Shown in pieces: positions 3,263 through 18,868 of a stretch of DNA of 64,000 nucleotides. Below the pieces are notes generated by a model that had not been told where the DNA came from, did no database searches, and saw only the letters and a list, made by a program, of their open reading frames with translations. Where the stretch lies: contig JAWPMV010000001.1 in assembly GCA_033391075.1 (NCBI GenBank), positions 7,998,001 through 8,062,000 on the forward strand, read 5' to 3'. Position 1 is the stretch's first letter. Each line of letters begins with the position of its first letter. The position numbers were made by a program, and so were the translations under genes. The stretch is from Bacteroidia bacterium. GTDB lineage: Bacteria; Bacteroidota; Bacteroidia; J057.

Positions 3263-3334
3263 AAACAGGGTTAAAGGAAACCGCTGGGAACCACCAAGTT
3301 ATATAAACCGAATGCATTCTCTATATTTCTACGT

Positions 3335-3360: not shown

Positions 3361-3470
3361 TGGCCTCATTAGCCGATAAAATACGCTTTTTTAAGCAATT
3401 TTCAGTAAATGAGACTTTTTCGCGGATCATCAATCCGGATTTTTAGAAAATTTAAAGAATTTGATTGATT

Positions 3471-6464
3471 CTAGCGTGTTAGGTCTCTTAACCTATATAT
3501 TCTTCCGTTTTTAACAACTCTATCTACGTTCCAGGCATCAGAAATGTTTGTCAGAGGATCTCCGTTTACAATCACAAAATCAGCCAGTTTTCCGGGCTCC
3601 AGGCTCCCCAGATCACGATCTACCCCTAAAGACTCTGCTGCCCGGATCGTAGAACTTTGCAGTGCTTCAAAGGGGCTAAGTCCTGCCTTTACATATAGCT
3701 GCAACTCTGTATGAAGGCTCCAACCATAAGGCAAAATGGGTGAATCTGTCCCAGAAGTGATTTTTCCTCCGGCATCCAATAATTTTCGCAAATGGGCAAA
3801 TTCCGAAGGCAACTCATTCCTCCATCTCGGCAAACTTTTCTCCTTCCATACATTCAGAAGGTCTCGAAACTCTTTTTGCATATCCCAGGTGTACAATTCC
3901 TGGTAAGTTTTATGTTTAAGAATTTCCGGATTTTCATCCGAATGAACAATCAAGCCTCCTGTCAGTGCCAGGGTTGGGGTGAGGTACATACCTGACTGAC
4001 TCAAAATCTCTGTCACATCCTGATAAGAAACACTTGTCTCGGATTGTTTGAGAGAATATCCTCTTCGACTCGTTGCCCTCACATGTTCTACGGCATCCAC
4101 TCCATAAGCTGATGCAGGATATATTTCATGCGAGCTCACTGGGAGTCCCCATGAATGGGCGGTTTCAACGACCATTTTTTGAGCACTATCCGGTAGCCTG
4201 ACATAGGTTTTTACCAGATCATACTCCAATCTCCTTGCCCGTTCGAGTTCTCTCATCAGCTGGGCGGGATTTAGCATGGCATTGCCGACCTCATAGTATA
4301 TCCGGCTGCCGTCGGTTAGGTTACCCGTAAAGAATAGTCTGGGACCGGGTCTTTGCTCCGAACTCCAGGATTCTTTTCTTTCTCTTGCATCATAGGGATC
4401 TCCGCCTACCTCTCTGACAGAAGTAATCCCATAGGCCAGCCATATTTTTCCCAGAAGCTCCCCGCCATAGCAGGTTTGATGCGTGTGGGTGTCGATAAGG
4501 CCGGGAATGATGGTCCGGTTAGAGGCATCTATGATTTGCATGCCTTCCGGATGATTCTTTATAGGGGTAATCTCTTTGATGCGATTTCCCTCTACGAGGA
4601 TATCTACTTTATTTCTGTATTGGGTGCTTTTTCCGTCAAAAAGCTTTCCAGCACGAATGACATAGGTGTCTTCGGGAATCGCTCTTTTCCAGGTGAAGGC
4701 AAGCGGAATTTCATTTTCCTTGCCATCTGTTATATCGATGCGTTTTAACCTATCAGTAGCCAGATAAAGGAGACTTTTTCCATCTCCACTCCAACTAGGG
4801 CTATCCGCCAACTCTTCCGTAATCCTGAAGGCTTTACCCGTAGGATTGCCCAAAGAATCTACAGCCTGTATCCAAAGTTGTCCTTCCTGAATGAAGGCCA
4901 TATGTTTTCCATCAGGTGACCAGATGGGACCATTATTGCCACGTGTTCCCAAAGGCTTTCCTTCAGAAAGTTGCAGAGCTCTTTCGGCTTTTGTTTCTAT
5001 AGAAATCAGGGTGGCTTGATTCCTGCCTTCTCTAAATCTTGCTGAATATCTTTTTAGCTCAGAAAAAACGACATTTTCGCTATTGGGAGACCAGGTAGGA
5101 GCACCCGGACCGAAAAGCCCTTCTTTCAATACTTTCGCTCTTACATTGCTGAGGGTAAGTACCTTCAAATCGGTAGGTCCGATGAAGTTCATTCTGCTTA
5201 CATTATAGTAAGCAATTTTTTCTCCGTCTGGTGACCATGCCGGATAAATGATTCCATCTTCTCCTCGGCTTAGTCTTCTATCTTTTTCTGTCTCCAGATT
5301 ATAAACCCAAAGGTCCATCGTGCCTTTTCTGTCTGAAACAAAGGCAATTTGTCTGCCATCCGGGCTCCAGGTAGGATCCAGGTCAACAGCTGGGTCATCG
5401 GTAATCTTACGAGCATTGCCTCCGATTTCCTGAATCCATATATCACCCAATGCGGAAAAAAGGATAGACTTTCCATCGGGAGAAAGTTCCGGAGATCGGA
5501 TACCCATAGGAATTTGGGCGTTCTGGTTATCGAAGTCGTAGGTCTTACGCGTATAGGCTTTCCTCCTAAAATCAACATAGGCCGTAAAGTCAATGCTGAT
5601 GTAACTTTCCTGGCCCAGCATACGACGACAAATCTTCCCATCAGCAGTATATACCAATTCGCTATCAGATAGCCAGGAGCCTCTGAAAGGAAAAATATCT
5701 TTATTGGAAGTTTTCAAGGTATCAATGTTGCCCTGGCTGATGCCAATTCGCAATTGATGGGTGAGACCGTCTTGAATAGTGTGCACAATCAATTCCTGAC
5801 CGGAAGGGCTCCAAAGGGGCATGCCGATCTGGCCAGTCAGACTGGGTAGGCGAGAAATTCTTCCTTCAGCATCTTTCAAGGAAAGCCCATTGACTCTATC
5901 CACAAAGGCGATGCTTTTTTCATCGGGCGAATAAGCGGGATAATATTCATCCCCAGGACTGGAGGTTATCTGTTTCCAGTTTTTATTTGTGAGATCAATT
6001 TCCCACAAATCATAATTGCCTTCTCTGTCAGAAGAACAAATGATTTTATTGCCATCGCTGGACCAAAAGGGTTCTCGATAGTCAAAGGAACCTTTGCTAT
6101 GCTGTTGCAGATCTGTTCCATCTGCTTTGATGGAATAAATGTGAAAATTACCGTCCAGGTAGGAATGAAAGGCTATTCTGCTTCCATCCGGAGACCAGTT
6201 GGGTAAGTGGCTACCACCTAATTCGCTTGTAATGGGCTTCGCAATTCCTCCATTTACAGGTAAGACCCAGATTCTGCCCTGGAGATCCATGGCCAGTGTC
6301 TTTTTGTCTGGAGAAAGAGAAACTGCAATATTCGTCCCTTGCTGTAAAGCAATCAGATCTCCCGGCTCTGGGCTTTCTTTTACCGGAGCTTCATCACATG
6401 CAGTGTAGATCAGTATGCTGGCAAGGATGAAAAATAAATTGGCAAATTGTTTTATGCCTTTCAT
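3471..6464 (-). CDS. TolB-like propeller / amidohydrolase lipoprotein
   Basis: A 997-residue secreted lipoprotein. The chosen ATG gives a clean lipoprotein signal (MKGIKQFANLFFILASILIYTAC); an ATG 11 codons upstream would place an extra tail before it. Residues 40-600 hold repeated PD40/TolB-type strands (WSPDGSRIAF, WSSDGNKI, WSPDGRQIAFVSDRKG), forming one or two beta-propellers. The C-terminal third is an amidohydrolase domain with the metal motif GLIDTHTH near residue 657 and SGTDSPIL, the late Asp ligand region. Such proteins are usually annotated as imidazolonepropionase-like or TolB-amidohydrolase fusions. The substrate cannot be told. It stands alone, about 107 bp from rsgA. Confidence 0.82.
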   Translation of the reverse strand: MKGIKQFANLFFILASILIYTACDEAPVKESPEPGDLIALQQGTNIAVSLSPDKKTLAMDLQGRIWVLPVNGGIAKPITSELGGSHLPNWSPDGSRIAFHSYLDGNFHIYSIKADGTDLQQHSKGSFDYREPFWSSDGNKIICSSDREGNYDLWEIDLTNKNWKQITSSPGDEYYPAYSPDEKSIAFVDRVNGLSLKDAEGRISRLPSLTGQIGMPLWSPSGQELIVHTIQDGLTHQLRIGISQGNIDTLKTSNKDIFPFRGSWLSDSELVYTADGKICRRMLGQESYISIDFTAYVDFRRKAYTRKTYDFDNQNAQIPMGIRSPELSPDGKSILFSALGDIWIQEIGGNARKITDDPAVDLDPTWSPDGRQIAFVSDRKGTMDLWVYNLETEKDRRLSRGEDGIIYPAWSPDGEKIAYYNVSRMNFIGPTDLKVLTLSNVRAKVLKEGLFGPGAPTWSPNSENVVFSELKRYSARFREGRNQATLISIETKAERALQLSEGKPLGTRGNNGPIWSPDGKHMAFIQEGQLWIQAVDSLGNPTGKAFRITEELADSPSWSGDGKSLLYLATDRLKRIDITDGKENEIPLAFTWKRAIPEDTYVIRAGKLFDGKSTQYRNKVDILVEGNRIKEITPIKNHPEGMQIIDASNRTIIPGLIDTHTHQTCYGGELLGKIWLAYGITSVREVGGDPYDARERKESWSSEQRPGPRLFFTGNLTDGSRIYYEVGNAMLNPAQLMRELERARRLEYDLVKTYVRLPDSAQKMVVETAHSWGLPVSSHEIYPASAYGVDAVEHVRATSRRGYSLKQSETSVSYQDVTEILSQSGMYLTPTLALTGGLIVHSDENPEILKHKTYQELYTWDMQKEFRDLLNVWKEKSLPRWRNELPSEFAHLRKLLDAGGKITSGTDSPILPYGWSLHTELQLYVKAGLSPFEALQSSTIRAAESLGVDRDLGSLEPGKLADFVIVNGDPLTNISDAWNVDRVVKNGRIYRLRDLTR

Positions 6465-6571
6465 TTCCTTTATCTGAGGTCTAATTAATTGGGGCAATTT
6501 AAAAAAATATGTGAAGCTTCCCGTGAAAGCTGTGCTGGATTATTCTCTTTCCTGTATGGACAGTGCAGGAA

Positions 6572-7546
6572 TCAATCCAAATCGAGTATTTCCCTACGCA
6601 TTTTTACATAATTTTTATACCGACTGTCAGGAATTTCCCCTTTTTCCCACGAGTCTTTAACGGCACAAGCCGGTTCTCTGGTATGACTGCAGTCACTAAA
6701 TTTGCAATCCGACATCAATTGGAGGATTTCAGGAAAATAGTGGCCGAGGTCTTCTGCGGTAAAATCAGTAATTCCCCATTCTTTAATTCCGGGGGTATCT
6801 ATAATATATCCCCCTCCGCTAAGGGGATGCATCTCTGCATAGGTAGTTGTGTGTTTTCCTTTTTGGTGATAATCTGAAACTTCTGCAGTTTTTATATCCA
6901 GCTGAGGATCTACCAGGTTTATCAGGGTACTTTTTCCCGCTCCTGAATGTCCTCCGATAAAACTTCTTTTGCCGACCAGGAGTTCATTTACCTTCTCGAT
7001 GTATTGATCATCCAGGGCAGACAACTGACTTACGGAGTATCCTACTGATTCATAGGTTTCAACGATTTTTGCTAATTGTTCTTTCTGCTCTTCGGTCTGG
7101 ATAAGGTCCAGTTTGTTGATCACTATTTGGACCGGGATATGATAGGCTTCTGCAACAATGAGAAACCTGTCTGCAAAACCGGTAGAAGTTCGGGGAAAAT
7201 CAATGGTAAATAGCAGAATAGCCTGGTCGATATTGGCAGCAAGAATATGGACCTTATGATTATGGCCGATGGCTTTCCTTAAAATATAGTTCTTGCGAGG
7301 CAGAATCTCATAAATCACTCCTTTCCCTTCTTCATCTGTAAGCGCATATCTGACTTCGTCTCCTACAGCCACAGGATTGGTAGCGATGAGGCCTGCAATC
7401 CTGAATTTTCCTCTGATCGAACATTCTATATGCTCGCCTTTCTCATTCAATACTCTGCTGAAAGATCCTACTGACCGAATGACGGTTCCACTTTCCAGCT
7501 GAGTCGGAATTTCCGGCTGTTCTTTACGCTTTTTCTTCTTTGACAT
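6572..7546 (-). CDS. rsgA: Ribosome small subunit biogenesis GTPase RsgA
   Basis: A 324-residue circularly permuted GTPase that acts late in 30S maturation. The G motifs occur in the permuted order: G4 INKLDLI, then G5 SALD, then G1 GHSGAGKSTL, then the switch region TTTY and G3 DTPGIKEWG. The N-terminal OB fold (residues 20-90) and the C-terminal zinc knuckle (CKFSDCSHTREPAC) are both present, so it is full length. A lysine-rich start (MSKKKKRKE) suits an RNA-binding protein. The first 23 bp overlap the end of the upstream M61 peptidase gene, so the two are probably translated from one mRNA. Confidence 0.95.
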   Translation of the reverse strand: MSKKKKRKEQPEIPTQLESGTVIRSVGSFSRVLNEKGEHIECSIRGKFRIAGLIATNPVAVGDEVRYALTDEEGKGVIYEILPRKNYILRKAIGHNHKVHILAANIDQAILLFTIDFPRTSTGFADRFLIVAEAYHIPVQIVINKLDLIQTEEQKEQLAKIVETYESVGYSVSQLSALDDQYIEKVNELLVGKRSFIGGHSGAGKSTLINLVDPQLDIKTAEVSDYHQKGKHTTTYAEMHPLSGGGYIIDTPGIKEWGITDFTAEDLGHYFPEILQLMSDCKFSDCSHTREPACAVKDSWEKGEIPDSRYKNYVKMRREILDLD

Positions 7547-9287
7547 ATGTTGAGGGCTGAAAAAGTTCTACCTTCTGCCATGAGGCCCGATTTAGCAATT
7601 GCTCCGAACTCGGATTTGCAAGGGGCATAAACTGCGGAACCATAAAGCGCTTTTGAACAATGAGAGGAACAGAAACCTGGTATAATTTATTTCGATGAAA
7701 ATAGTGAAGTTCTACCTCAGATTCTTCGGCAAAATAACCCAACAAGTGTTCCAAATCTTTTTTGATCTTCTTTCCGTTTATGGCAATAATCTCATCTCCT
7801 TTATTTAGACCGGCCAGAGCTAAGGGACTTGCCGGCAATAAGTTTTCGATTTTTACCCCTATTTCGCTGAGGTTGCTGGATTTAAGTCCCCAGACGATTT
7901 GTTCCAGTCTTTCAGGAGGAGATTCAATCAATTTGAGCCCCATATATTCCCCCATCTCTGAGAGAGGCTCTTGCAGGTCGGCTATTCCTGAGATGTATTT
8001 TTTGAAAAATTCGGTAAAAGATTCTCCGCTGACATCTTCCAGCGCTTTTATATAATCCTCTTTGGTGTATCCTCGGTTTTCTTTGGTGACTCTGTGATAA
8101 AGGAGTCCTACAGCAGTATCGAGAGATGCCTTATTAGCTGTTGCCTTTCTGATTTTTCCATCGATCAGCATAGAGACAATATTTCCTTTGGTATAAAAGG
8201 AAATCCGACGATTGGGGATGCCTTCATTGGTGTAGCCATTGACCCAACTGTCGAAACTGGCCTGCTCTAGTGAAATGAATTCCTTCCCTCCCATGCTATA
8301 ATGTCTCCTCAATTCTCCATTTATAGCTTCTATCCACTGCTTGATATTCCAGACCTGAGATTTCCAAAGCATCAAATCGCCATAGTAGGTAGTGATCCCT
8401 TCTGTGATGTAGTGCAATTTGGAATAGTTGCGTTCATCGTATCTATAGGGATACATATCTGCCGGGCGAAGGGCTTTTACATTCCAGGTATGAAAAAGCT
8501 CATGGGAAGAAATCTCCAAAAAGGATTTATACATAGGACTTTGCATAAGTCTATGTCCAGGTCCCATGGCAATGACGGTCGAATTGTAGTGCTCAACCCC
8601 ATGCCGATATGGATAGGGAAGCATGACATAGAGGTAATGGTACTCCTGCACCGGAAACTCTGCAAACATTTTCAACTGAGCTTCTGTATAGGCCCGAATG
8701 TCCTCCTCCATTTTGTTAAGGGCAGGTTTACAATCTCCCTGAAACCAGAGAAACATAGGAATCCCTGCTACTTCAAACTCATGTTTGATGAGCTTTCTCC
8801 CTGCAAAAAATGGTGTGTCTACCAATTGATGGAAGTTCTCAAAGTAGTAGCCTTTGCCTTGCTCTTTCAGGGCTCCTCCAATTTGGTAGTCTTCCGGAAT
8901 TAAAAGATCCAGGGTACATGGCTCGTCAATTTTTTCTTTTTGATAAAGAAAGAGGTTGATCCCATTTATATAGAGGCCTTCCTGATCCAGGTAAGAACCT
9001 CCGGCATCAGAATTATTGCAATAGTATAGGTAGGAGATCGTAAGGGTTGTGCTTTCCGGACACTGAACCTCCCAACTATGTGTTCCCAGTTTTTTTACAG
9101 GGAGTTTTTGATCTTCATCATTCCAGACTTCCACATCCGTGATGAGTCGCTCATATTCCTGCAAAATATATCTTCCCGGTCTCCAGGTAGGGAGATGGAA
9201 AACCTGACTACCTTTTTCACAATGTGTTTTTAGGCTTAGGCGGATACATTGCTGGATAGAAGAGCTGACATCAAGAGTATAATGCAT
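7524..9287 (-). CDS. M61-family glycyl aminopeptidase with PDZ domain
   Basis: A 587-residue M61 metallopeptidase. The zinc motif HELFHTWN is at about residues 262-269 (H262, E263, H266), with the downstream Glu in TEGITTYYGDLM. An N-terminal beta domain (1-170) and a C-terminal PDZ-like region (LAGLNKGDEIIAINGKKI) complete the family layout. The ATG used is the first ATG; an in-frame TTG lies 11 codons upstream. There is no signal peptide, so it is probably cytoplasmic. It overlaps rsgA by 23 bp and probably shares its transcript. Confidence 0.88.
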   Translation of the reverse strand: MHYTLDVSSSIQQCIRLSLKTHCEKGSQVFHLPTWRPGRYILQEYERLITDVEVWNDEDQKLPVKKLGTHSWEVQCPESTTLTISYLYYCNNSDAGGSYLDQEGLYINGINLFLYQKEKIDEPCTLDLLIPEDYQIGGALKEQGKGYYFENFHQLVDTPFFAGRKLIKHEFEVAGIPMFLWFQGDCKPALNKMEEDIRAYTEAQLKMFAEFPVQEYHYLYVMLPYPYRHGVEHYNSTVIAMGPGHRLMQSPMYKSFLEISSHELFHTWNVKALRPADMYPYRYDERNYSKLHYITEGITTYYGDLMLWKSQVWNIKQWIEAINGELRRHYSMGGKEFISLEQASFDSWVNGYTNEGIPNRRISFYTKGNIVSMLIDGKIRKATANKASLDTAVGLLYHRVTKENRGYTKEDYIKALEDVSGESFTEFFKKYISGIADLQEPLSEMGEYMGLKLIESPPERLEQIVWGLKSSNLSEIGVKIENLLPASPLALAGLNKGDEIIAINGKKIKKDLEHLLGYFAEESEVELHYFHRNKLYQVSVPLIVQKRFMVPQFMPLANPSSEQLLNRASWQKVELFQPSTYVKEEKA

Positions 9288-9439
9288 CTTGTTTGAGTAT
9301 TGGGTGCCTAAATTACTCAAAAAAGCCTTGCCATTTCAATAAGCTGATTGATTGCTTTTGAAAGCTTTGATTTTTTTTTCCTGCCTTTAAGTGCGTTTTA
9401 GAACGATTTTCGAAATTTTTTTCAAAAAATTTAAAAGTG

Positions 9440-9553
9440 GGGTGACCTGTGAAGATTATTCCTGTCTACAAATTGAACGAGATTTTATTCTCGTTTCGTT
9501 TTAGGGCGTTTTCATGGCTGTTGCCCCATCGTTTAGATGGGGCGCTTTTTTTT
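9440..9553 (+). ncRNA. Candidate small RNA ending in a strong terminator
   Basis: On the plus strand a perfect hairpin AACGAG/CTCGTT (9476-9495) is followed by a second stem GCCCCATC/GATGGGGC (9523-9543) and eight T residues (9546-9553), a typical intrinsic terminator. Every annotated neighbour is on the minus strand: the M61 gene starts at 9287 and the lipoprotein operon ends at 9625. The terminator therefore has no coding gene to serve. The simplest reading is an independent short transcript. The 5' end is a guess; no convincing promoter was found, and no known RNA family was recognised. Confidence 0.4.
9523..9553 (+). terminator. Intrinsic terminator of the candidate small RNA
   Basis: An 8-bp GC-rich stem GCCCCATC/GATGGGGC with a 5-base loop is followed by GC and eight T residues on the plus strand. 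It has no T tract on the minus strand, so it is directional. Confidence 0.75.
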
Positions 9554-9556
9554 ATG

Positions 9557-9596
9557 AAAAATCTCCCATATTCTGAGGCCAGAGGATGGGAGATTT
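9557..9596 (-). terminator. Terminator of the lipoprotein operon
   Basis: A perfect 11-bp stem, AAATCTCCCAT (9559-9569) and ATGGGAGATTT (9586-9596), lies 29 bp after the last lipoprotein stop. On the minus strand it ends in a run of T. Confidence 0.65.
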
Positions 9597-9624
9597 AAGC
9601 ATGTTAGCCTCTTCTTTGTAGAAA

Positions 9625-10248
9625 TTATTCCTGATGATTACAGCCTCTCATGCATCCTATGTGAAAGTAGTGCCGTGCCATGAGTGCTCTGTGTTGGCAA
9701 TAGCTCAAATTATCCCTTTCGCAGCTTTCCAGAACTTTCTCAAACTCATCATTGGCTTCCCGATCACAATAGCGGAGACAGTTACTTTTCGCCTGAGCCT
9801 CCTCGAACTCTTCAGTATTGTTTGCAAAGAATAAGAGTTCGTTTAAATCACTGATTTGAAAAACATATCCCTTTGAGAGTTCCTCATGAATTTGCTGTAG
9901 CAAAGTCTTTATTTTCGAATTGCCTTCAGCTACATCAATACCGCTAAGCAAGCTATACTTCCGGATACTCCTTGATGAAGCTTTTTCAAGGAAGTTTTCA
10001 ATTTTCGGGTATTTCTCGTGGATATTGAGAAGCCACCAGAGATCCTTCTGATCCAGGTTTTTCCTTCTATCCTCGATCTTTTGTTCTAGTTTCTGCTCGG
10101 CTTCGAGAAATTGATGGAAAGCATCCAGGCTGAGGAGTTTTTCATTGAGTTGTTCTTGGGTAAGAATTTCCTGAGTTATTTCAACTTCTGGCTGACAGGA
10201 AAAAAGGAGTATAAGGCAAGTTGTTAGAATATAAATTGTGTTTTTCAT
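9625..10248 (-). CDS. Six-Cys tandem lipoprotein, copy 4 (last in operon)
   Basis: A 207-residue predicted lipoprotein (lipobox ends at Cys18, LLFSC). It is a paralogue of the three genes upstream. It shares the central HEKYPKIENFL and LLSGIDV blocks seen in the others as H-x2-Y-P-x4-F and L-(T/S/E)-G-(I/V)-(D/N). The C-terminus has six cysteines spaced CX3C-X14-C-X7-C-X14-C-X3-C, mirror-symmetric, which suggests an antiparallel helical hairpin tied by disulfides (inference). It ends GCMRGCNHQE. It is 10 bp behind copy 3, so cotranscribed. No known family is recognised; function unknown. Confidence 0.75.
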   Translation of the reverse strand: MKNTIYILTTCLILLFSCQPEVEITQEILTQEQLNEKLLSLDAFHQFLEAEQKLEQKIEDRRKNLDQKDLWWLLNIHEKYPKIENFLEKASSRSIRKYSLLSGIDVAEGNSKIKTLLQQIHEELSKGYVFQISDLNELLFFANNTEEFEEAQAKSNCLRYCDREANDEFEKVLESCERDNLSYCQHRALMARHYFHIGCMRGCNHQE

Positions 10249-10258
10249 GTTTATTCTC

Positions 10259-10702
10259 TTAAAGATTTTCCGGGGAAAGGAGGTTTACGAAATGGGCATT
10301 GTCATAGAGATAATGTTCATCTAATTTCTCCTTAAGTAATTCAAAGCTCTTTGTGAGAGAGGATTGCTCCTGGATAAGATCGATTCCGGTCAGGAAGTTG
10401 TACTTCTTGATTTCTTCCTTTTTGGCGAGTCGTAGAAAATCATCATGCTGTTCATACTTCCCATGAATACTTTGTATCCATTCTGCATCTTCCTGGCTAA
10501 GTTCAGAAGTGCGCGTTTCGATATTTCTCTGAAGTTCATGATAGGCATATACAAAGGCTTGATATTCCTTCATGTCCATGACTACTTCAGATAATTGATT
10601 TTCATTCAGGCGAATCTTACCCAGGGGCTTATCGATACTTTGGCAGGAGAAAAGCATGCATAGAGTAGAAACTAGCAAGCTGCTGATAGAAATTTTTTTC
10701 AT
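10259..10702 (-). CDS. Tandem lipoprotein, copy 3, without the six-Cys tail
   Basis: A 147-residue lipoprotein (signal up to Cys20, MLFSC). It is paralogous to its neighbours over the N-terminal region, with HGKYEQHDDFL and FLTGIDL at the expected places. It stops at SPENL, just where the others begin the six-cysteine module. Only 10 bp separate the stop from the next start, so there is no room for a missing tail or a simple frameshifted remnant. It could be a natural short form or a deletion product. It lies 30 bp behind copy 2 in the same operon. Confidence 0.72.
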   Translation of the reverse strand: MKKISISSLLVSTLCMLFSCQSIDKPLGKIRLNENQLSEVVMDMKEYQAFVYAYHELQRNIETRTSELSQEDAEWIQSIHGKYEQHDDFLRLAKKEEIKKYNFLTGIDLIQEQSSLTKSFELLKEKLDEHYLYDNAHFVNLLSPENL

Positions 10703-10732
10703 AAGAGTTGAGCTTAAAAATGGATAAGGAAA

Positions 10733-11377
10733 CTATTCTTGTTGACTACAACCGCTCAGACAACCCCTCAGGTAATAGGTAAATGCGAAACGGGCTTCTT
10801 CTCTACAAAAAGACTCAGGTTCGGATAAGCCTCCTACAGGTTGCATACATCTGTTATAGATCAGTTGTCGATATTGTGCGGCTGAACCCATGCACCAGAC
10901 AGAGCAACCGAGTGCTGTTTTTTCTGCTTCTCCAAAGATGTTTGATCCCAATTGGAACATCACATCCTCCAGGTCTGAAGCTTCGTATCGAATTTCCTCT
11001 TTTAGCTTGCTTAGGAAAATTTCAAACTTTTGCAGGGAAATAGAATTTCTGGTGAGCAAATCAATTCCTGTTAATTTTTTGTAGGTGGAATAAAGGTTTT
11101 CGTCAGCTGCTGCACGAAAATCTTCGAGCAAGGGATAGTTTTGATGCATACTTTTAACGAGTTCAAATTCCTTTTTACTGATCTCTCTTTTCTTTTTGAT
11201 GATGGCCTGGGTCTCAAGCCGAAATTCTGTGAGATATCCCTGGTATTCTTCTGATTGGGCCAAATGATACAGGAGTTCTTCTTTATCAAGCAAAGGTTTT
11301 TCCGGAAGGATCTCATTTTCACAGGCGAAAAAGAGGATGCTGATAAGGGCAAGGCTTAATAATTTTAGTGTTCTCAT
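10733..11377 (-). CDS. Six-Cys tandem lipoprotein, copy 2
   Basis: A 214-residue lipoprotein (lipobox at Cys19, LFFAC). The core has SMHQNYPLLEDF and LTGIDLL, matching the paralogues. The C-terminal module has six cysteines spaced CX3C-X14-C-X13-C-X14-C-X3-C and ends GCLSGCSQQE, almost the same final residues as copy 4 (GCNHQE). The spacing inside each half is invariant while the middle loop differs (13 residues here). It is 175 bp downstream of copy 1; that gap holds no gene and could carry a second promoter. Confidence 0.75.
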   Translation of the reverse strand: MRTLKLLSLALISILFFACENEILPEKPLLDKEELLYHLAQSEEYQGYLTEFRLETQAIIKKKREISKKEFELVKSMHQNYPLLEDFRAAADENLYSTYKKLTGIDLLTRNSISLQKFEIFLSKLKEEIRYEASDLEDVMFQLGSNIFGEAEKTALGCSVWCMGSAAQYRQLIYNRCMQPVGGLSEPESFCREEARFAFTYYLRGCLSGCSQQE

Positions 11378-11552
11378 ATGTAAATTGATTTTGTGTTGAC
11401 TATTCCTGGCTTCCTGTTAGAAAGGAAGAGCTATCTTGATTGAAGCTGAAGGATACGCTCCTCCTGGCCTTACAAAATGCTTTGACCAGAGAGGAGTTTC
11501 AAGGTCCCCGGATCGGGATACTTGAATGGATCAAAAATCGGATAGCATTTTT

Positions 11553-12119
11553 TTAACAATCCCCCATGCATTCAGTGAGGAAATAGAAATAGCGGATTTC
11601 AGCTTCTTCTTTGCATTCATGTTCATCCCCTTTTCCCGCTGTACAGGCATTCATGCTACTCAGACGGCTATGTTCTGCCCGTATGATGCACCATTCTTTG
11701 CAGCTCCAGCTTTGGTAGCCTTCGGAAACTTCTTTTTGATAAGAGGGGAATAGTTCTTCTGAGGGAAAAGCTTTTAGGCCTTGATCCAAAAGAACTGAGT
11801 GCTTTCTATTTTGGATGTTGACTCCTTCCAGAATTTTGATTCTGCCAATCTTCTTCAATCGTAGGATATCCTCTGCATTTCCTTCTTTGAGGAACTGATC
11901 AATCTGAGGATAGATGTGGTGGAGTTCTTCCAGAAATACCTGCTCGGATGGAGTGAGGTTATCGAGCTTGTCTGCAATATCCTGGAGATGTATGCTTAAA
12001 GTTGATGGCTGAGATTCTTGCTGATGGACTTGAAATGTTTCCTCTGAAAGTTGGTGGCAAGCGGTACTCAATAACAAGCCACAAAGCAGGAGGCAAAAAA
12101 GATTCTTCATGTGTTTCAT
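11553..12119 (-). CDS. Six-Cys tandem lipoprotein, copy 1 (first in operon)
   Basis: A 188-residue lipoprotein and the most divergent of the four. The signal ends at Cys21 (LLSTAC). The core has LHHIYPQIDQFL and ILEGVNI, aligning with H-x2-Y-P and LTGIDL of the others. The tail has six cysteines spaced CX3C-X14-C-X9-C-X14-C-X3-C, and the protein ends in the last Cys (CMGDC). It starts about 150 bp from the rplI stop, across a strong terminator, so it is likely the first gene of its own transcript. The 175 bp after it (11378-11552) show no gene. Confidence 0.72.
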   Translation of the reverse strand: MKHMKNLFCLLLCGLLLSTACHQLSEETFQVHQQESQPSTLSIHLQDIADKLDNLTPSEQVFLEELHHIYPQIDQFLKEGNAEDILRLKKIGRIKILEGVNIQNRKHSVLLDQGLKAFPSEELFPSYQKEVSEGYQSWSCKEWCIIRAEHSRLSSMNACTAGKGDEHECKEEAEIRYFYFLTECMGDC

Positions 12120-12224
12120 GTTCTTGGTTTAAAGCGATTCTTCAGAGATCATGTTAAAAGTTGATCTCATTAGGATATGACCCCAAAGCCAGGAGCTATG
12201 TCAACACGGGGGGAAATTTTTTGC

Positions 12225-12253
12225 AAAAAAAAAGCCCGACCAAACGGTCGGGC
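12225..12253 (-). terminator. Terminator of rpsF-rpsR-rplI operon
   Basis: A perfect stem GCCCGACC/GGTCGGGC with loop AAAC (12234-12253) lies 21 bp after the rplI stop. On the minus strand it is followed by at least nine T (12225-12233). The plus strand also has a short T run, so it may work both ways. Confidence 0.85.
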
Positions 12254-12273
12254 TTTTATATAGGTAGAGTTTC

Positions 12274-12720
12274 TTAGTTCTCTTTTCTGAGGACTTCAAT
12301 TTGAATCTCAGCTTTGACTTCTTTGTGAAGGTGAACTGTAGCAGTGTATTCGCCAGTAGTTCTGATATCTTCAAAAGTCAGAGTCTTACGATCAATTTCG
12401 TGTCCAAGTTCTTTCAGCTTGTTTACTAACTGAATGCCAGTAACAGATCCGAAGAGTTTTCCATCGGCACCTGCGAGGGTTTCGATAGTGATTTTCAAAC
12501 CTTCCAGTTTAGCAGCTTCTTCTTCAGCTTGTTGCTTTACGAATTCTTGCTTGTGGGCAGCTTGTCTCTTCTTTTCATCTAAAGCTTTCTTGCTAGAGGC
12601 AGTAGCCAAAATAGCAAGGCCTTGTGGGATCAGGTAATTGCGTGCATATCCAGGCTTTACCTTTACAACATCATCCTGATCACCCAGGTTTCTTATCGGT
12701 TGTTTTAAGATTACTTCCAT
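12274..12720 (-). CDS. rplI: 50S ribosomal protein L9
   Basis: A 148-residue L9, full length. The N-terminal rRNA-binding domain has the family start (MEVILKQPIRNLGDQDDVV) and VKPGYARNYLIPQGLA. A charged connecting helix (residues 47-75) leads to the C-terminal domain (FGSVTGIQLVNKL). It is the last gene of the operon, 8 bp after rpsR, and is followed by a strong terminator. Confidence 0.98.
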   Translation of the reverse strand: MEVILKQPIRNLGDQDDVVKVKPGYARNYLIPQGLAILATASSKKALDEKKRQAAHKQEFVKQQAEEEAAKLEGLKITIETLAGADGKLFGSVTGIQLVNKLKELGHEIDRKTLTFEDIRTTGEYTATVHLHKEVKAEIQIEVLRKEN

Positions 12721-12728
12721 GTCCTTAC

Positions 12729-13001
12729 TTATTTCAACTCGTCAGTAACAAATGGTAAAAGTGCCAAATGACGGGCACGCTTGATAGATACGGAAAGTCT
12801 GCGCTGAAATTTCAGGCTGGTTCCTGTCAAACGACGAGGAAGAATCTTTCCTTGATCATTTACAAACTTCAAGAGGAAGTCTGGATCTTTGTAGTCAATA
12901 TAAGTGATGCCAGCTTTCTTGAAACGGCAGTACTTCTTACTTCTTTGCTTTGACTTAATCCGGTTGGACGCCGTAGGCCCAATAACTGGAGATTTTGCCA
13001 T
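12729..13001 (-). CDS. rpsR: 30S ribosomal protein S18
   Basis: A 90-residue S18 with the hallmark block [17 protein letters not shown] followed by [12 protein letters not shown]. The basic N-terminus ([20 protein letters not shown]) is usual for Bacteroidota S18. S18 binds S6 on the 30S platform, in line with its place directly after rpsF (22-bp gap). Confidence 0.98.
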
Positions 13002-13023
13002 AATAAAATGTCTTTCTGATTAA

Positions 13024-13404
13024 TTAAAATGTCTTGGCTTCTTTGCGGAGGCCAAAGCTTTGGTCACGACGCTTCTTGTTATAAGCCAGCGCGTGCTTTT
13101 CCAATTTTACGGTTAAATACCTAATTACCTGGTCGTCGTAGCGATACGTTTGCTCGAGCTTAGGAATAATAGCTCCTGGAGCATTAAACTCCATGTAAAC
13201 GTAAAAGCCGGACGTCTTTCTCGCTATGGGATAGGCTAACTTGCGTACGCCCCAGTGCTCTCTATTGTGCACGGTCCCACCATTGTCCTTAATCAGATTG
13301 ACGATTTTGTCAACTGCCTGTTTCTGTTCGTCCCCTGACAGATCGGGAGTGAGGATGAACGTCGTTTCATACTCGTTGTTAAACGATTTGGGTGTTATAT
13401 CCAT
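13024..13404 (-). CDS. rpsF: 30S ribosomal protein S6
   Basis: A 126-residue S6, with NEYETTFILTPDLSG at the start and the family block REHWGVRKLAYPIARKTSGF. It is first in the rpsF-rpsR-rplI operon. No ssb gene lies between rpsF and rpsR. A Bacteroidota-type -7 box is 20 bp upstream, giving a very short leader. Confidence 0.97.
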   Translation of the reverse strand: MDITPKSFNNEYETTFILTPDLSGDEQKQAVDKIVNLIKDNGGTVHNREHWGVRKLAYPIARKTSGFYVYMEFNAPGAIIPKLEQTYRYDDQVIRYLTVKLEKHALAYNKKRRDQSFGLRKEAKTF

Positions 13405-13424
13405 AATTTTATTAAAACGGACTG

Positions 13425-13432
13425 CAAAGGTA
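13425..13432 (-). promoter_or_regulatory. -7 box of the rpsF operon promoter
   Basis: On the minus strand TACCTTTG matches the Bacteroidota TAnnTTTG -7 consensus, 20 bp before the rpsF ATG. No clear TTTG -33 box was seen at the usual spacing. Confidence 0.6.
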
Positions 13433-13495
13433 GTATAAATTTTTCAAATAAGCACGTAGCTTTGAGGAATTAACGATATAGCAAAATAGTCCTTG

Positions 13496-13503
13496 TATAT
13501 TTG
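13496..13503 (+). promoter_or_regulatory. Possible -7 box of the glycosyltransferase gene
   Basis: TATATTTG matches TAnnTTTG and ends 9 bp before the ATG at 13513. If used, the message would be almost leaderless, and the in-frame TTG at 13501 would lie inside the promoter, supporting the ATG start. Confidence 0.4.
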
Positions 13504-13512
13504 AGTCAGCGT

Positions 13513-14460
13513 ATGAAGATCTCAGGCTTTAGTTTTGTGAAAAATGGAGTAAAACTCTATTTCCCGATCCGAGAGGTAATCGAATCGGCTTTGCCGCTGG
13601 TGGATGAATTTATCGTAGCGGTAGGAGATTGTGATCCCGATGATAGTAGTCGGGCTGAGATTGAAGCCATAAATTCTCCTAAAATAAAAATCATTGATAC
13701 AGTCTGGGACCTGGAAGCTTATCCAAGGGGTATGGAAAATGCTCATCAAACAGACATAGCTAAAAGTCATTGTTCCGGTGATTGGCTACTCTATCTGCAA
13801 GGAGATGAATTGATTCATGAAAAGGATTATGCGGCCATCCGGAAACGCTGTGAGGATTTGCTGGAGGATCGGGAGATCGAAGGATTACTCTTTAAATACA
13901 ATCACTTCTGGGGAGATTATGATCATGTACACAGGTCTCATGGCTGGTATAGAAGGGAAATACGGATCATTCGCAATGATCCGGAAATTCATTCCTGGGA
14001 ATCGGCCCAGTCTTTCCGCCGCATTCCTGATTTTGAGGGGAAAAACTATCGACAGCAAGAAGGCACACATAAATTGAAAGTAGCGGAAGTAGATGCGCAC
14101 ATCTATCACTACGGATGGGTCCGTCCTCCTTCTGTTATGCTCAACAAAAAGAAAGCCCTGGATACGATTCATAAAGGCAGCGAAAGGGTAGGGGAAATCT
14201 ATAAAGATGCTCCAGTCCAATTTGACTATGGCGATATGAGTCGCATTCCAAAATTCAAAGGAAGTCATCCTGCTGTTATGCAGACTTTTATCCATAAATT
14301 TAACTGGGGCGATCAACTCCGATACGATAATTCGAAGCCAGATCGACCTTTATTCAAACACGAGAAACTAAAGTACCGTATCCTGAGTTGGATAGAGAAT
14401 AAGCTCATGGGAGGAAGAGGCATTTTCGGCTTCCGCAATTACCTCCTCCTCAAAAAATAA
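13513..14460 (+). CDS. Glycosyltransferase, GT2-like
   Basis: A 315-residue cytoplasmic protein resembling a GT-A glycosyltransferase. The N-terminus (FSFVKNGVKLYFPIREVIES) matches a family where the usual opening is F-x-K-N-A. DEFIVAVGDCDPDDSS is the nucleotide-sugar binding loop and LYLQGDELIHE replaces the usual DxD with GDE. A late HYGWVRPP motif is common in this group. The ATG is preferred over a TTG four codons upstream. It stands divergent from rpsF and 20 bp before osmC, whose likely promoter overlaps its stop codon. The acceptor is unknown. Confidence 0.75.
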   Translation: MKISGFSFVKNGVKLYFPIREVIESALPLVDEFIVAVGDCDPDDSSRAEIEAINSPKIKIIDTVWDLEAYPRGMENAHQTDIAKSHCSGDWLLYLQGDELIHEKDYAAIRKRCEDLLEDREIEGLLFKYNHFWGDYDHVHRSHGWYRREIRIIRNDPEIHSWESAQSFRRIPDFEGKNYRQQEGTHKLKVAEVDAHIYHYGWVRPPSVMLNKKKALDTIHKGSERVGEIYKDAPVQFDYGDMSRIPKFKGSHPAVMQTFIHKFNWGDQLRYDNSKPDRPLFKHEKLKYRILSWIENKLMGGRGIFGFRNYLLLKK

Positions 14461-14465
14461 TTTTG
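14458..14465 (+). promoter_or_regulatory. -7 box of the OsmC gene
   Basis: TAATTTTG fits the TAnnTTTG consensus exactly, 15 bp before the OsmC ATG. Its first three bases are the TAA stop of the preceding glycosyltransferase. No -33 box is evident. Confidence 0.5.
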
Positions 14466-14480
14466 CATTAAATCAATCTC

Positions 14481-14918
14481 ATGGCAGATACAACAACTAA
14501 AGTCGTTTATAAAACCAAAACCAGCTGGGTCGAAAAACTCGCTTTCGACAACCAGATAGATCAACATAGCTTCCGTATCGATGGAAATGGCCCCACGCCA
14601 GAAGGTACAGGTCCTAGTCCTAAAAAAATGCTGCTTACTTCTCTGGCAGCCTGTACAGGGATTGACATTGTTTCTATGTTGGAGAAAATGCGCGTGCCGA
14701 TTACAGGCCTGGAACTGGATACAGAAGCTGATCTTACAGAGGAGCATCCCAAAGTATTTTCCGAGATTCGTTTGACCTATCGAGTATTTGGAGAAAATAT
14801 CGATCGGGCGAAAGTGGAAAAAGCTGTTCAGCTCTCCAAGGAAAAGTATTGCGGAGTATCAGCTATACTGGAAAAGAATTCGCCGATCAAAATTGAGATT
14901 GAGTACGTAGAAGCTTAG
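14481..14918 (+). CDS. OsmC-family peroxidase-like protein
   Basis: A 145-residue OsmC/Ohr-type protein. The two redox cysteines are Cys58 (SLAACTGID) and Cys124 (KYCGVSAIL). GPSPKKMLLTSLAAC is the family helix start. Members reduce organic hydroperoxides using thiols; the closest subgroup here is OsmC-like rather than classical Ohr, judging by the KYCxVS block (inference). It precedes a pirin gene by 76 bp, with an AraC regulator next, suggesting a small stress-response unit. Confidence 0.9.
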   Translation: MADTTTKVVYKTKTSWVEKLAFDNQIDQHSFRIDGNGPTPEGTGPSPKKMLLTSLAACTGIDIVSMLEKMRVPITGLELDTEADLTEEHPKVFSEIRLTYRVFGENIDRAKVEKAVQLSKEKYCGVSAILEKNSPIKIEIEYVEA

Positions 14919-14994
14919 GCATTTTTTACCAGTGATGGTCTTTTTCTCACCTTTTAGTAGGCTAATGGTACCTCTACCTTTGGCTGAAAAGGAT

Positions 14995-15810
14995 ATGAGA
15001 AAGATTCGCAAAATTCAGTCTCCCCGAAACCACATACAATTCATCGTTTATCCAGAAGATAGAGAAGCGATGAAGCCCTTTGTCTTTTTCGATGCTGGTA
15101 ATATGCAAAGAGAGGATGAGGGCCTGGAAATTCATACCCATCCCCATTCCGGCATAGGGATCATTACCTATTTTCATGGAACGGATCTTCATCATGGAGA
15201 TAGCGGAAGCAATGAGGGAATTATCCGGGGAGGAGGTGCTCAATGGATCAGGGCTGGAGGAGGAGTTTGGCATGAAGAAAAGTACAGAAGACCTGCTGGG
15301 AAATCGGAGGGCAAATGGAAAGCTTCCATTCATCAATTGTGGATGGCGCTGCCTCCTGAATTCGAAGAAAGGGAAGTTGAGTACAGCAATCTGCAGCCAG
15401 AGGAGATTCCTTCAATTGGGCAGGTAAAGGTTTTGGTAGGGGAATACCAGGGAGTAAAAGGGAAAATCCATACCCCTTTCGATATGAGCTACCTGGACGT
15501 ATCTCTGGATGCAAAAGAAGAATGGGAAATTCAACTTCCGGCCACCCAAAGCAAAGGCTTTCTTTTCCCCCGAAACGGAAATCTTTTTATTGAAGGGGAA
15601 GAAATACCCAATCAGCGTATGGGAATTCTGCAAGAGGGGACAGGAACTCTATCCTTGAAAGCTGGAGCAGAAGGAGCAGATTTTGTCTTGCTGAGTGCTG
15701 CTCCCAGTCAGCATCCTTTGGTGATCTCTCGTAGTTCTATTCATACAAATAAAGAGGCTTTGGAGAGAAGTATGCTTCGGATACAAGAAATCGCAGAAAC
15801 TGTATCTTAG
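14995..15810 (+). CDS. Pirin family protein
   Basis: A 271-residue bicupin of the pirin family. The metal motif is visible as HTHPHSGIG (His49, His51) and GVWHEE (His93, Glu95). The chosen ATG gives the usual short start MRKIRKIQSPRNHIQFIVY; a GTG 21 codons upstream would add a hydrophobic stretch not found in pirins. A purine-rich GAAAAGGA precedes the ATG. Some pirins are quercetinases and others redox-sensing cofactors; the sequence does not decide between these. It lies in a row with osmC and an AraC regulator. Confidence 0.88.
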   Translation: MRKIRKIQSPRNHIQFIVYPEDREAMKPFVFFDAGNMQREDEGLEIHTHPHSGIGIITYFHGTDLHHGDSGSNEGIIRGGGAQWIRAGGGVWHEEKYRRPAGKSEGKWKASIHQLWMALPPEFEEREVEYSNLQPEEIPSIGQVKVLVGEYQGVKGKIHTPFDMSYLDVSLDAKEEWEIQLPATQSKGFLFPRNGNLFIEGEEIPNQRMGILQEGTGTLSLKAGAEGADFVLLSAAPSQHPLVISRSSIHTNKEALERSMLRIQEIAETVS

Positions 15811-15836
15811 GGAAATGCAAGATTTCAAAAGCATAT

Positions 15837-16706
15837 ATGTCTGACATCATATTCCATAGATCAAGTGAAAAAGGAAGAGGGCTTCCATTCGCCATCCTTT
15901 CCAGTAGCCAGGAACCGATGCTGGAGGAAGACCTCTTTACTCCCTCATTGCGGGATTTTCATGTAGTCTTTTGGTTTAAGAAAGGCGTAGGGAAATACTA
16001 CATTGATTTTCAGGAATATACCTATAAGCCCAATACGATTGTAATGGTTTCCAAAGATCAGGTTCACTATTTTGAAAAGCCTGAACAAGATTGGGAACTT
16101 ATTTCTATTCCTTTTCTCAGTGACTTCATCTACAGAAATGACAATGACCTAAGGCATTTGTTCAATTTCAATATTTCTTGCCATCTGGAAGGTCAGCAGA
16201 TTTTGCATTTGAAAAAAGAAGATGCTGACTTTCTGAAGGATATAGTTAGTTATTTGCGACTTGTGTATTATCAGTGGGTAGGCAAAGCGCAGCAAGACGC
16301 TTTTTACCACTGGCTTTGCATTTTCCTCATTTATTGCGAAAAATTGCAGGAAAGCCCTCCCACAGAACTTTTGGAAGGACAGGGAGATGATACCCGACTG
16401 CTGTTGGATTTTCTGGAGATTCTGGAAACACATTATAAAGAAGAAAGAAGTGTGGGCTTCTACATTGAACAGCTCAATATTTCCCTGAAAGTACTGGCCC
16501 GGATTACTCAGGAGCGATATAAAATCTCTCCCAAGCAAGTTATCAATGAGCGGGTAATGCTGGAAATGAAACGGCAACTCAGAGGAAGCAATCGACCCAT
16601 CAAGCAAATTGCTTACGATTTGGGCTTTGGAGAACCCACCAATATGGTCAAGTACTTTAAAAAATACAGTGGGCATACTCCCAGCGCTTTCCGGGAACAA
16701 AAGTAA
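15837..16706 (+). CDS. AraC family transcriptional regulator
   Basis: A 289-residue regulator. The N-terminal 1-150 is a cupin-like effector domain (VFWFKKGVGKYYIDFQEY). Residues 190-289 hold the two AraC helix-turn-helix motifs, ending IKQIAYDLGFGEPTNMVKYF and SGHTPSAFR, the family signature. It lies 26 bp after the pirin gene, so probably in one transcript. The next MATE transporter gene follows after about 80 bp and may be a target (inference). Confidence 0.93.
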   Translation: MSDIIFHRSSEKGRGLPFAILSSSQEPMLEEDLFTPSLRDFHVVFWFKKGVGKYYIDFQEYTYKPNTIVMVSKDQVHYFEKPEQDWELISIPFLSDFIYRNDNDLRHLFNFNISCHLEGQQILHLKKEDADFLKDIVSYLRLVYYQWVGKAQQDAFYHWLCIFLIYCEKLQESPPTELLEGQGDDTRLLLDFLEILETHYKEERSVGFYIEQLNISLKVLARITQERYKISPKQVINERVMLEMKRQLRGSNRPIKQIAYDLGFGEPTNMVKYFKKYSGHTPSAFREQK

Positions 16707-16787
16707 GGCGAAAAAATACCATCCTATCTCTTTTTCTGACCTTTAGACCGATGCAAAATATCCGGTCCTTTGACTCAAAATATTCAT

Positions 16788-18212
16788 ATGTCAAAGGATT
16801 TATTGAAAGGGTCGACCAACAAAGCCCTCTTGTCTATGTCCGTTCCCATAAGCATAGGCATGTTGTCTACCATTCTCTTTCAGGTCATTGATACCTATTT
16901 CGTTGGACAATTAGGAGCAGAGCCCCTGGCAGCTTTGAGTTTTGCTTCGACAGTTTACTTTTTGTTGGTAGGCTTATTTATCGGTTTTTCGGTAGCCGTT
17001 TCGATTATGGTTGCCAAAGCCTTTGGAGCAAAGGAAATTGATAAGTTAAAGCAGATTTTAGGCCTTTCACTCCTAATAAGCGGCTTGATAACTGTCTTTC
17101 TTTCCTGGCTGGGAATCATAAGCATAAGTTCTGTATTCGGTTTCTTAGGGGCAGATGAACAAACCTTGCCCCATGTTGCTGCCTATATGAGTATCCTCTA
17201 TCTGGGGATGCCTTTGCTGGCGTATGGAATTATTGGCGGGGGAGCATTGAGGGCCACCGGAAATGTGAAATCTCCTGAAGTCGTTTTTGGGTTAGCAGGC
17301 ATTATAAATGCTCTTCTGGATTATGCCTTTATTTTTGGAGTTGGTCCCTTTCCACAGCTCGGCATACAAGGAGTCGCTTTAGGAACCCTCATTTCCTGGA
17401 TCTTTATATTTCTAGCGATGACGGTCCTTCTCTTGAGAGATAAACTGCTCATCCTGCCCCACTTTAGATCATTGGTGCATGAACTCCCTATTTTTAAGGA
17501 AATATCGCGCTTGGGACTTCCTTCCATTGCCACCCAATTGGTCGGCCCTGCGACCCTCATGTTCATTACCTATATACTGGGTAAGGAAGGAGGTGCCGCT
17601 GTAGCTGCCTTTGGGGTGGCTGGCAGGATAGAAACCCTGATGCTCATTGGGGTGATGGGGGTAAGTACAGCAGCTACTCCTTTTATCGCGCAAAATCTGG
17701 GAGCAAAAAAGCACCTTCGCATAGATGAAGCTATTGTCTTTGGAGGAAAGGCATCTGTTTACCTCGGGATATTTCTATTCTTCTTTCTGATAGCCCTGGC
17801 CGGTCCCATAGCTGGAATGTTTAGTGAAGACCCCCTGATCATCAGCTATACCCAAAAGTACTTTTACCTGGTAGCAATTTCCTACGTCTTCTACAGCCTG
17901 TATTTGATCAGTAGTTCTATTTTCAATGGCTTGCAATTAGCTGTCAATTCGCTCAAAATCATTTTGGTGAAAAGCTTTCTGTTCACGCTTCCTCTGGTTT
18001 TAATTGGATCTTTTTGGGGCGTGGAGGGAATATTCGCCGGACTTTCAGTAAGCAATGTTTTGGGAGGACTTTATGCGGGAAAAGAGCTGCGAAAACAATT
18101 GAAAAAAGTGAATTCTCCTTTAAGCCAAAGAAATCCCTGGCAAGATTACAAATCAGACCTCAACTCTTTGGTTAAAGGACTACTGTCTTTGCTGGGAAAA
18201 TTGAAAACATGA
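16788..18212 (+). CDS. MATE family efflux transporter
   Basis: A 474-residue inner-membrane protein with about 12 transmembrane helices. It starts with the usual MATE opening (KALLSMSVPISIGMLSTILF, then VIDTYFVGQLGAEPLAALSF). The family exports cationic drugs or metabolites in exchange for Na+ or H+. The ATG is preferred over an in-frame TTG six codons upstream. It may be controlled by the AraC regulator just before it. A second, distinct MATE gene is at 22149-23444. Confidence 0.92.
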   Translation: MSKDLLKGSTNKALLSMSVPISIGMLSTILFQVIDTYFVGQLGAEPLAALSFASTVYFLLVGLFIGFSVAVSIMVAKAFGAKEIDKLKQILGLSLLISGLITVFLSWLGIISISSVFGFLGADEQTLPHVAAYMSILYLGMPLLAYGIIGGGALRATGNVKSPEVVFGLAGIINALLDYAFIFGVGPFPQLGIQGVALGTLISWIFIFLAMTVLLLRDKLLILPHFRSLVHELPIFKEISRLGLPSIATQLVGPATLMFITYILGKEGGAAVAAFGVAGRIETLMLIGVMGVSTAATPFIAQNLGAKKHLRIDEAIVFGGKASVYLGIFLFFFLIALAGPIAGMFSEDPLIISYTQKYFYLVAISYVFYSLYLISSSIFNGLQLAVNSLKIILVKSFLFTLPLVLIGSFWGVEGIFAGLSVSNVLGGLYAGKELRKQLKKVNSPLSQRNPWQDYKSDLNSLVKGLLSLLGKLKT

Positions 18213-18301
18213 TCTGGCGGGTAAAAAACTGACCATCAAAAGGGCAAAACGGACCTTTAGTTCCGCCAGTATCAAACCTAATTTTGGAGAAAGAAATAAA
18301 A

Positions 18302-18868
18302 ATGAAAAAAGTATTAGTCTTTGGAGGAAGCAATAATTCAGAATCAATCAATCAGGAGCTGGCTCGCATTGCAGGAAAATTGTTGGAGAGGACGACGATG
18401 CAGGAAATAAAGCTTAGCGACTATCCCCTGCCTATTTATGGTATTGACCATGAGAAGACCTTAGGGATTCCAGAAGAAGCGACTAAACTGAAAGCTGTCT
18501 TTGATGCATATGATGCATATATCATTTCAGTGCCTGAGCACAATTTGTCTGTGCCTGCTTTTTTCAAAAACAGCATTGATTGGCTTTCTCGCATACACAT
18601 GAGTTTTTTTGAGCATAAACCGATTCTTTTGCTGAGTACTTCTCCAGGCAAAGGAGGAGGAGAAAGCTCCCTTGCTCATGCGGAAACCATTTTATCCAAC
18701 TATTTGGCGGGAAGAATTGTGGGGAAATTCAGCCTGGCAAGATTCTATCAATCAGTAGAGATCCAGGAAGATGGGAGTATTAGGCTAAAAGAGGAGTATC
18801 TGGAGGTCTTGAAAGAGGAAGTAGATCGATTAGAGGAGGAGGTAGGCGCGAAAGTAGAAAGTCTATAG
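18302..18868 (+). CDS. NADPH-dependent FMN reductase
   Basis: A 188-residue flavodoxin-like flavin reductase. The FMN phosphate loop is VFGGSNNSESINQ, and VPEHNLSVPAFFKNSIDWL is the dimer/flavin region of the NADPH_dep_FMN_red family. A TTG six codons upstream is a weaker start. The gene ends in a hairpin overlapping its stop codon. Confidence 0.88.
   Translation: MKKVLVFGGSNNSESINQELARIAGKLLERTTMQEIKLSDYPLPIYGIDHEKTLGIPEEATKLKAVFDAYDAYIISVPEHNLSVPAFFKNSIDWLSRIHMSFFEHKPILLLSTSPGKGGGESSLAHAETILSNYLAGRIVGKFSLARFYQSVEIQEDGSIRLKEEYLEVLKEEVDRLEEEVGAKVESL

Follow-up and report, generated by a model that had tools for sequence, protein, structure and literature searches.

Helical hairpins stapled by disulfide bonds are best known from mitochondria and plants. 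Plant alpha-hairpinins are described with two motifs, a four-cysteine (4C) form, CX3C-X4-20-CX3C, and a mirror-symmetric six-cysteine (6C) form, CX3CX3C-X4-20-CX3CX3C (PMC11591084). The small Tim proteins adopt a helix-loop-helix when oxidised, with an inner and an outer disulfide between twin CX3C motifs, and reduced Tim9 and Tim10, which carry the twin motif, are reported to bind zinc 1:1 in vitro (PMC3759932). In a saposin-like potato insert six cysteines pair in nested order, 1-6, 2-5 and 3-4 (Cys6-99, Cys31-71 and Cys37-68), and the saposin-like fold is described as having four to five helices (PMC7447066). Here we describe four consecutive lipoprotein genes, A to D, in a Bacteroidia bacterium (assembly GCA_033391075.1, contig JAWPMV010000001.1, positions 7,998,001 to 8,062,000; this stretch of 64,000 nucleotides is called the window, and coordinates below are counted within it). 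Three of the four proteins end in a six-cysteine module with mirror spacing. We give about an even chance to the reading that they form a two-module envelope lipoprotein family, in which a helical head carries a disulfide-stapled hairpin arm with a putative binding role. The genes and modules are as follows.

9625-10248, minus strand: lipoprotein D, 207 residues; lipobox-type Cys18, helical head, six-cysteine tail with a 7-residue loop; AlphaFold2 model
10259-10702, minus strand: lipoprotein C, 147 residues; lipobox-type Cys20, head only, second gene from the left
10733-11377, minus strand: lipoprotein B, 214 residues; lipobox-type Cys19, helical head, six-cysteine tail with a 13-residue loop; AlphaFold2 model
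11553-12119, minus strand: lipoprotein A, 188 residues; lipobox-type Cys21, short head, six-cysteine tail with a 9-residue loop
9640-9780, minus strand: six-cysteine module of D, residues 157-203; predicted helices 156-175 and 181-204
10748-10906, minus strand: six-cysteine module of B, residues 158-210; predicted helices 158-178 and 188-207
11556-11702, minus strand: six-cysteine module of A, residues 140-188; the final cysteine is the last residue

The tails of D, B and A read exactly CX3C-X14-C-X(7,13,9)-C-X14-CX3C, and when the window was scanned in six frames with the spacing relaxed, the module appeared in these three proteins only. Every arm is 20 residues long in every copy, without an indel, and length changes are confined to the loop. 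Cysteines aside, few arm residues are identical (9/34 for A and B, 5/34 for A and D, 6/34 for B and D). An earlier reading of this DNA, made from the sequence only, had named both the spacing and the scant remaining identity, and it was accurate on each. With the cysteines masked, the tails of A and D aligned like shuffled sequences (445 of 500 shuffles scored at least as well), and A-B (4/500) and B-D (2/500) still stood above shuffles. Because the cysteines and the arm lengths are kept while identity elsewhere is low, the cysteine frame is, by these alignments, the best-kept feature of the tails. Counted inward from both ends of the module, the cysteine positions of a protein always give the same sum: 157+203 = 161+199 = 176+184 = 360 in D, 368 in B and 328 in A. 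Constant sums of this kind are, as far as spacing can tell, the register of an antiparallel hairpin that turns in the loop. When projected on an ideal helix, the three cysteines of each arm fall within 100 degrees.

AlphaFold2 models of D and B reached a mean predicted local distance difference test score (pLDDT) of 80.4 and 80.7, respectively. In D, a helical head extends to about residue 144 and is followed by a flexible linker and by the two tail helices. The tail helices of B also follow a flexible linker, and Cys210 lies just beyond the second of them. Just ahead of the tail the pLDDT is below 50, at residues 143-152 in D and 149-154 in B. The models support a two-helix hairpin with its cysteines in mirror register, and this predicted register fits the pairing 1-6, 2-5, 3-4. 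The sequence-only reading had proposed a disulfide-tied helical hairpin and structure prediction as the way to check it. The hairpin appears in both models, and from its register we infer the disulfide pairing.

Searches with D and with B each recovered the cluster in the own genome. With D as query, C was found at E 2.2e-17, B at 2.8e-14 and A at 0.012; with B as query, D was found at 1.7e-13, C at 8.8e-9 and A at 4.3e-5. In head-only alignments all six pairs outscored 500 of 500 shuffles, the C-D pair most strongly (z 22.1) and the A-B pair most weakly (z 4.5). On these scores the paralogy of A, B, C and D is beyond chance. The four consecutive lipoprotein paralogues first proposed are borne out, with exact coordinates and a lipobox-type pattern in all four. 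The two core blocks assigned to the whole family are each less general than claimed: A, B and D carry H-x2-Y-P-x4-F exactly, and C has H-x2-Y-E instead; L-x-G-I-D is exact in B, C and D and missing from A. Apart from Met1 and the lipobox cysteine, the columns invariant across A-D are H, Y, F and two I. Profile A1, built from all four paralogues, gave four strong places in the own genome and three weak ones (E 0.06-0.6; L008, L009, L010), and the weak ones align only at profile positions 1-45, the signal-peptide end. The head scores suggest that C and D were the last to diverge, and for that reason C probably lost a tail. C is without a six-cysteine tail, and its end falls at about the low-confidence linker of D, which suggests separable head and tail modules. 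The 10-base gap between C and D is too small for a relic of a tail behind C.

A scan with a PROSITE-like lipobox pattern showed that all four proteins have a hydrophobic N-terminus ending in a lipobox-type pattern, although the residue at -3 in A is Ser, which is less typical. A-D are therefore likely to be lipidated. They resemble Bacteroidota outer-membrane lipoproteins in this N-terminus, but differ in having no convincing match to a named family. In our preferred reading, the N-terminal module common to A-D would be a head built of helices only, about 120-140 residues long and with the lipidated cysteine as its anchor, and the C-terminal module of A, B and D would be an antiparallel helix hairpin behind a flexible linker. 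Three nested disulfides (Cys1-Cys6, Cys2-Cys5 and Cys3-Cys4) would staple the hairpin into a short, stiff, protease-resistant arm. This arm would most likely bind protein; it would stand out from the outer membrane, and the periplasm is its probable side. C would act as a head-only partner.

Several observations weigh against this reading. The two models share one four-row alignment as input, and mean pLDDT across the five models per run spans 67.7 to 80.4 for D and 69.1 to 80.7 for B. Ten-residue pLDDT means in D are 80-90 over residues 161-200 and drop to 65 and 56 at the ends that hold Cys157 and Cys203; in B they are 81-90 over 161-210 and 62 for 151-160, the block with Cys158. Among the genome sets searched there is no homologue on which to check the six-cysteine spacing. 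Neither VKOR (PF07884, E <= 0.001) nor DsbB (PF02600, E <= 0.01) had a match in the genome, in a search confined to these two oxidases. The motifs K-(D/E)2 and Q-A-(D/E)2 follow the lipobox cysteine in none of the four proteins, although they are Capnocytophaga motifs as described (PMC5080379) and may not be those of this host. Finally, because the three copies share an ancestor, their mirror spacing counts as one event, judged post hoc, and not as three.

This last point is the basis of a different explanation, that the mirror spacing was merely inherited from one ancestral gene and is uninformative about a selected hairpin. Six randomly placed cysteines in tails of these lengths would give exact mirror gaps with P of about 0.003 per tail, a value that is itself post hoc. 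We consider simple inheritance improbable, since identity in the arms outside the cysteines is down to 5-9/34, yet 18 of 18 cysteines and both arm lengths are kept, and the two models put the helices in matching register. Selection on the hairpin, as claimed at the outset, is read from this pattern in three paralogues, namely six cysteines and two 20-residue arms without indels amid drift, and is consistent with it.

The oxidase result bears on a second explanation, in which the six cysteines are fully or partly reduced and hold a metal, for example zinc, between the helices, making the tail a metal-binding or metal-sensing hairpin. Controls for the oxidase search were positive in 3 (VKOR) and 6 (DsbB) of 14 named genomes. 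The negative in this genome weakens the case for disulfides in the tails, which we infer, and it is the main reason for keeping the metal explanation. The cysteines of each CX3C are spaced by one helical turn and lie at the hairpin's open end, where they would also be capable of holding a metal, as the zinc binding described for reduced Tim9 and Tim10 illustrates (PMC3759932). On the other hand, the third cysteine of each arm lies 15 residues away near the turn, so that the six cysteines do not make one site, and the ten flanking proteins scanned include no metal-transport family. We therefore regard metal binding as unlikely. The genome, 9.49 Mb and listed as 99 percent complete, is without a DsbB or VKOR match yet encodes exported six-cysteine proteins.

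The orientation of the proteins was considered from the residues behind the lipobox cysteine. In Capnocytophaga canimorsus the surface-export (LES) motif after the lipidated cysteine is described as K-(D/E)2 or Q-A-(D/E)2 (PMC5080379). Positions +2 to +6 are HQLSE in A, ENEIL in B, QSIDK in C and QPEVE in D. By this motif A-D do not group with the surface lipoproteins of Bacteroidota, among which other genera use other motifs. Because the Capnocytophaga signal is missing in all four, a placement facing the periplasm is slightly favoured by the sequences.

Among described hairpins, the alpha-hairpinins come closest to the tails in pattern, with a disulfide-held helix-loop-helix, CX3C in both arms and, in the 6C form, mirror symmetry; the tail spacing fits neither the 4C nor the 6C motif as given there (PMC11591084). 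They differ in being short plant peptides with an arm of CX3CX3C, compared with CX3C-X14-C in the tails. To our knowledge, alpha-hairpinins have neither a lipid anchor nor a head domain. The small Tim proteins are alike in their helix-loop-helix and CX3C pairs (PMC3759932). They differ in being small proteins of the intermembrane space with four motif cysteines and no third pair near the turn, whereas the tails have six conserved cysteines with an extra pair at the turn. The saposin-like insert has six cysteines in nested order, an order with which the tail register, and the pairing drawn from it, would agree (PMC7447066). Saposin-like proteins differ in their four to five helices, their membrane interaction and their spacing, and the six-cysteine module has two helices in both models.

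These likenesses suggest a further possibility, that the lipoprotein presents a tail with membrane or antimicrobial activity, saposin-like or alpha-hairpinin in manner. Nested pairing as in the potato insert (PMC7447066) and the stapled hairpin as the alpha-hairpinin architecture (PMC11591084) are in keeping with it. However, the tails of A, B and D are neutral to acidic (net charge -4, 0 and -2) and hydrophilic on average (grand average of hydropathy -0.53, -0.27 and -0.89), and two modelled helices stand against the four to five of the saposin-like fold (PMC7447066). We think a membrane-active tail very improbable.

Structural comparison of the models gave the helical collar of the yeast clamp loader RFC as the best rows, with Z 5.5, root-mean-square deviation 3.5 and 95 aligned residues for D and Z 7.0, 2.8 and 98 for B. 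The next unrelated rows were lower (Z 3.9 for D and 4.4 for B). For helical bundles, the guidance of the comparison tool is that Z under about 13 may reflect only a common arrangement; the values for RFC lie in this range, and we lean to reading them so. Identity to RFC is 6-10 percent, and RFC is a cytosolic AAA+ subunit. In Foldseek, none of the 110 matches listed for the D model reached E <= 0.001.

Relatives were sought in 13 family, 22 order, 395 class and 395 phylum genomes. The sets overlap, each includes the own genome, and those for class and phylum are even draws from larger groups. At most 7 first-look candidates per genome were scored for A1 and B in the class and A1 in the phylum, and at most 15 for profile A2, built from the six-cysteine tails, in the phylum. 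The own genome alone yielded accepted relatives with A1 in all four sets, with A2 in the family and phylum sets, as in the tail-profile search that had been proposed, and with protein B in the 395 class genomes. Matches above threshold in other genomes numbered 1 of 13 family (E <= 0.01), 6 of 22 order (0.1), 2 of 395 class (0.001) and 3 of 395 phylum genomes (0.001) for A1, 4 of 13 family (E 1) and 5 of 395 phylum genomes (0.01) for A2, and 5 of 395 class genomes (0.01) for B. They were rejected, their translations being signal peptides, pieces of other proteins, antisense frames or frames broken by stops. The translations cover every match but L015 (profile positions 1-38), L017 (positions 1-48) and L044 (E 0.875). 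Six-frame translation of the 196,915 bases of the match loci outside the cluster gave no six-cysteine module.

Two matches deserve description. In a family member (L042, E 0.299) a look-alike of the second arm, C-X14-C-X3-C, lies antisense to a 244-residue ORF (open reading frame) with a stop just ahead of it, and we took it as chance. In a class member (L057, 1501-1707; E 3.8e-5 with B) H-x2-Y-P and a later T-x-I-D occur in the same order as in the lipoprotein core. This match lies partly ahead of the start and partly within a 382-residue ORF that is acyltransferase-like by eye. We took it also as chance; less probably, L057 has borrowed a domain.

Pattern scans gave the same result, with no relative among 52 and 24 stretches from two scans of genome contigs or among 96 stretches from viral contigs, and tblastn found no match to B in plasmids or to D in phages. 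In Pfam, NCBIfam, PHROGs and PADLOC, matches were only weak or in the signal-peptide range, including B to a beta-lactamase model (7.1e-4 at residues 7-53, with a score of 18.8 bits where the cut-off is 535) and B as the single match in PADLOC (E 0.0099). Against PDB sequences, D alone had a best E of 0.18, A2 had no match and A1 had one at E 0.9 (profile positions 9-43). The sequence-only reading knew of no described family with this pattern. That holds for these four databases, but a mirror-symmetric six-cysteine hairpin has a precedent in the 6C alpha-hairpinins as described (PMC11591084). A six-cysteine module with this spacing was undescribed among the literature matches listed, at the level of titles and the beginnings of abstracts. 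A-D are apparently an undescribed family, with a tail that would add a new spacing to the stapled helical hairpins described in eukaryotes, and, as far as the sequences in the searched sets tell, apparently a lineage-restricted one.

The cluster is flanked by an rplI-like gene at 12274-12720, a name given by eye, and by the gene of a peptidase that Pfam assigns to type M61 (7524-9320). The rplI-like gene is present in 11 of the 13 family genomes, own included. Its downstream region was compared using non-overlapping ORFs of at least 70 residues in 10 regions from other genomes (one of 323 bases omitted, two short); tandem small lipoproteins were seen in none of the 9 family regions, which have other genes there. 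The family set includes no second genome from the genus of the window. Within the cluster, the gaps of 30 bases (B-C) and 10 bases (C-D) are operon-like, and A precedes B by 175 bases. Two elements flank the genes.

12230-12257, minus strand: terminator-like hairpin, 12-pair stem and T tail, after the rplI-like gene
9557-9596, minus strand: inverted repeat and, behind it, a T run, just 3' of D; read by eye

The first would set gene A apart from the ribosomal unit, and the second is a possible terminator of B-C-D; the computed terminator list, made with loops of up to 8, does not include it. Terminator-like sites in the region number 4, against 2.8 in shuffles (standard deviation 1.6). A Bacteroidetes-type -33/-7 promoter pair was not found on the minus strand at 9300-13600, and sigma-70-type sites number 2, against 6.0 in shuffles. 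A plus-strand terminator-like hairpin with a T run lies at 9522-9544, between D and the M61 peptidase gene. No plus-strand ORF of at least 80 residues is listed between 8904 and 9522, ahead of this hairpin, which could end an unannotated small transcript; Rfam had no match in the window.

Ten flanking proteins, encoded at 1370-9320 and 13501-18868, were scanned with Pfam. Nine received a name, for the most part as enzymes of common kinds, repeats, a transporter or a regulator, and these neighbours give no functional clue to A-D. Beside the ribosomal genes, a plus-strand ORF of 319 residues (13501-14460) is without a Pfam match at 1e-4 and is glycosyltransferase-type by eye. The genes rsgA and that of the M61 peptidase slightly overlap (6572-9320), and a similar-looking adjacent pair occurs in one family genome (locus L032, 2738-5586; names by eye). 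The arrangement of the cluster raises the idea that A-D are immunity or decoy lipoproteins in bacterial competition, diverging under changing selection by toxins or phages. The proteins are small, tandem, diverged and apparently lineage-restricted, and B-C-D are closely spaced, as would suit such a role. Yet Pfam assigned none of the ten flanking proteins to a family of toxins, secretion or defence, and PADLOC gave nothing convincing. We judge a role in competition to be quite unlikely.

Our analysis points to a cluster of probable envelope lipoproteins with apparently separable head and arm. More tentatively, and at rather less than even confidence, A-D may be a new lineage-restricted bacterial family that joins an outer-membrane lipoprotein head to a triple-disulfide hairpin, an independently evolved counterpart of the mitochondrial and plant stapled hairpins, perhaps oxidised by a route other than DsbB or VKOR. 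The wider importance of the family is limited while it has no assigned function. If the tails are triple-stapled, they would be a compact bacterial example of the stapled-hairpin architecture, usable as a stable scaffold, and would raise the question of how disulfides form in an envelope for which the searches gave no DsbB and no VKOR. A-D, a tandem family of orphans, also offer a clean case of a cysteine frame that is kept while the rest of the sequence drifts.

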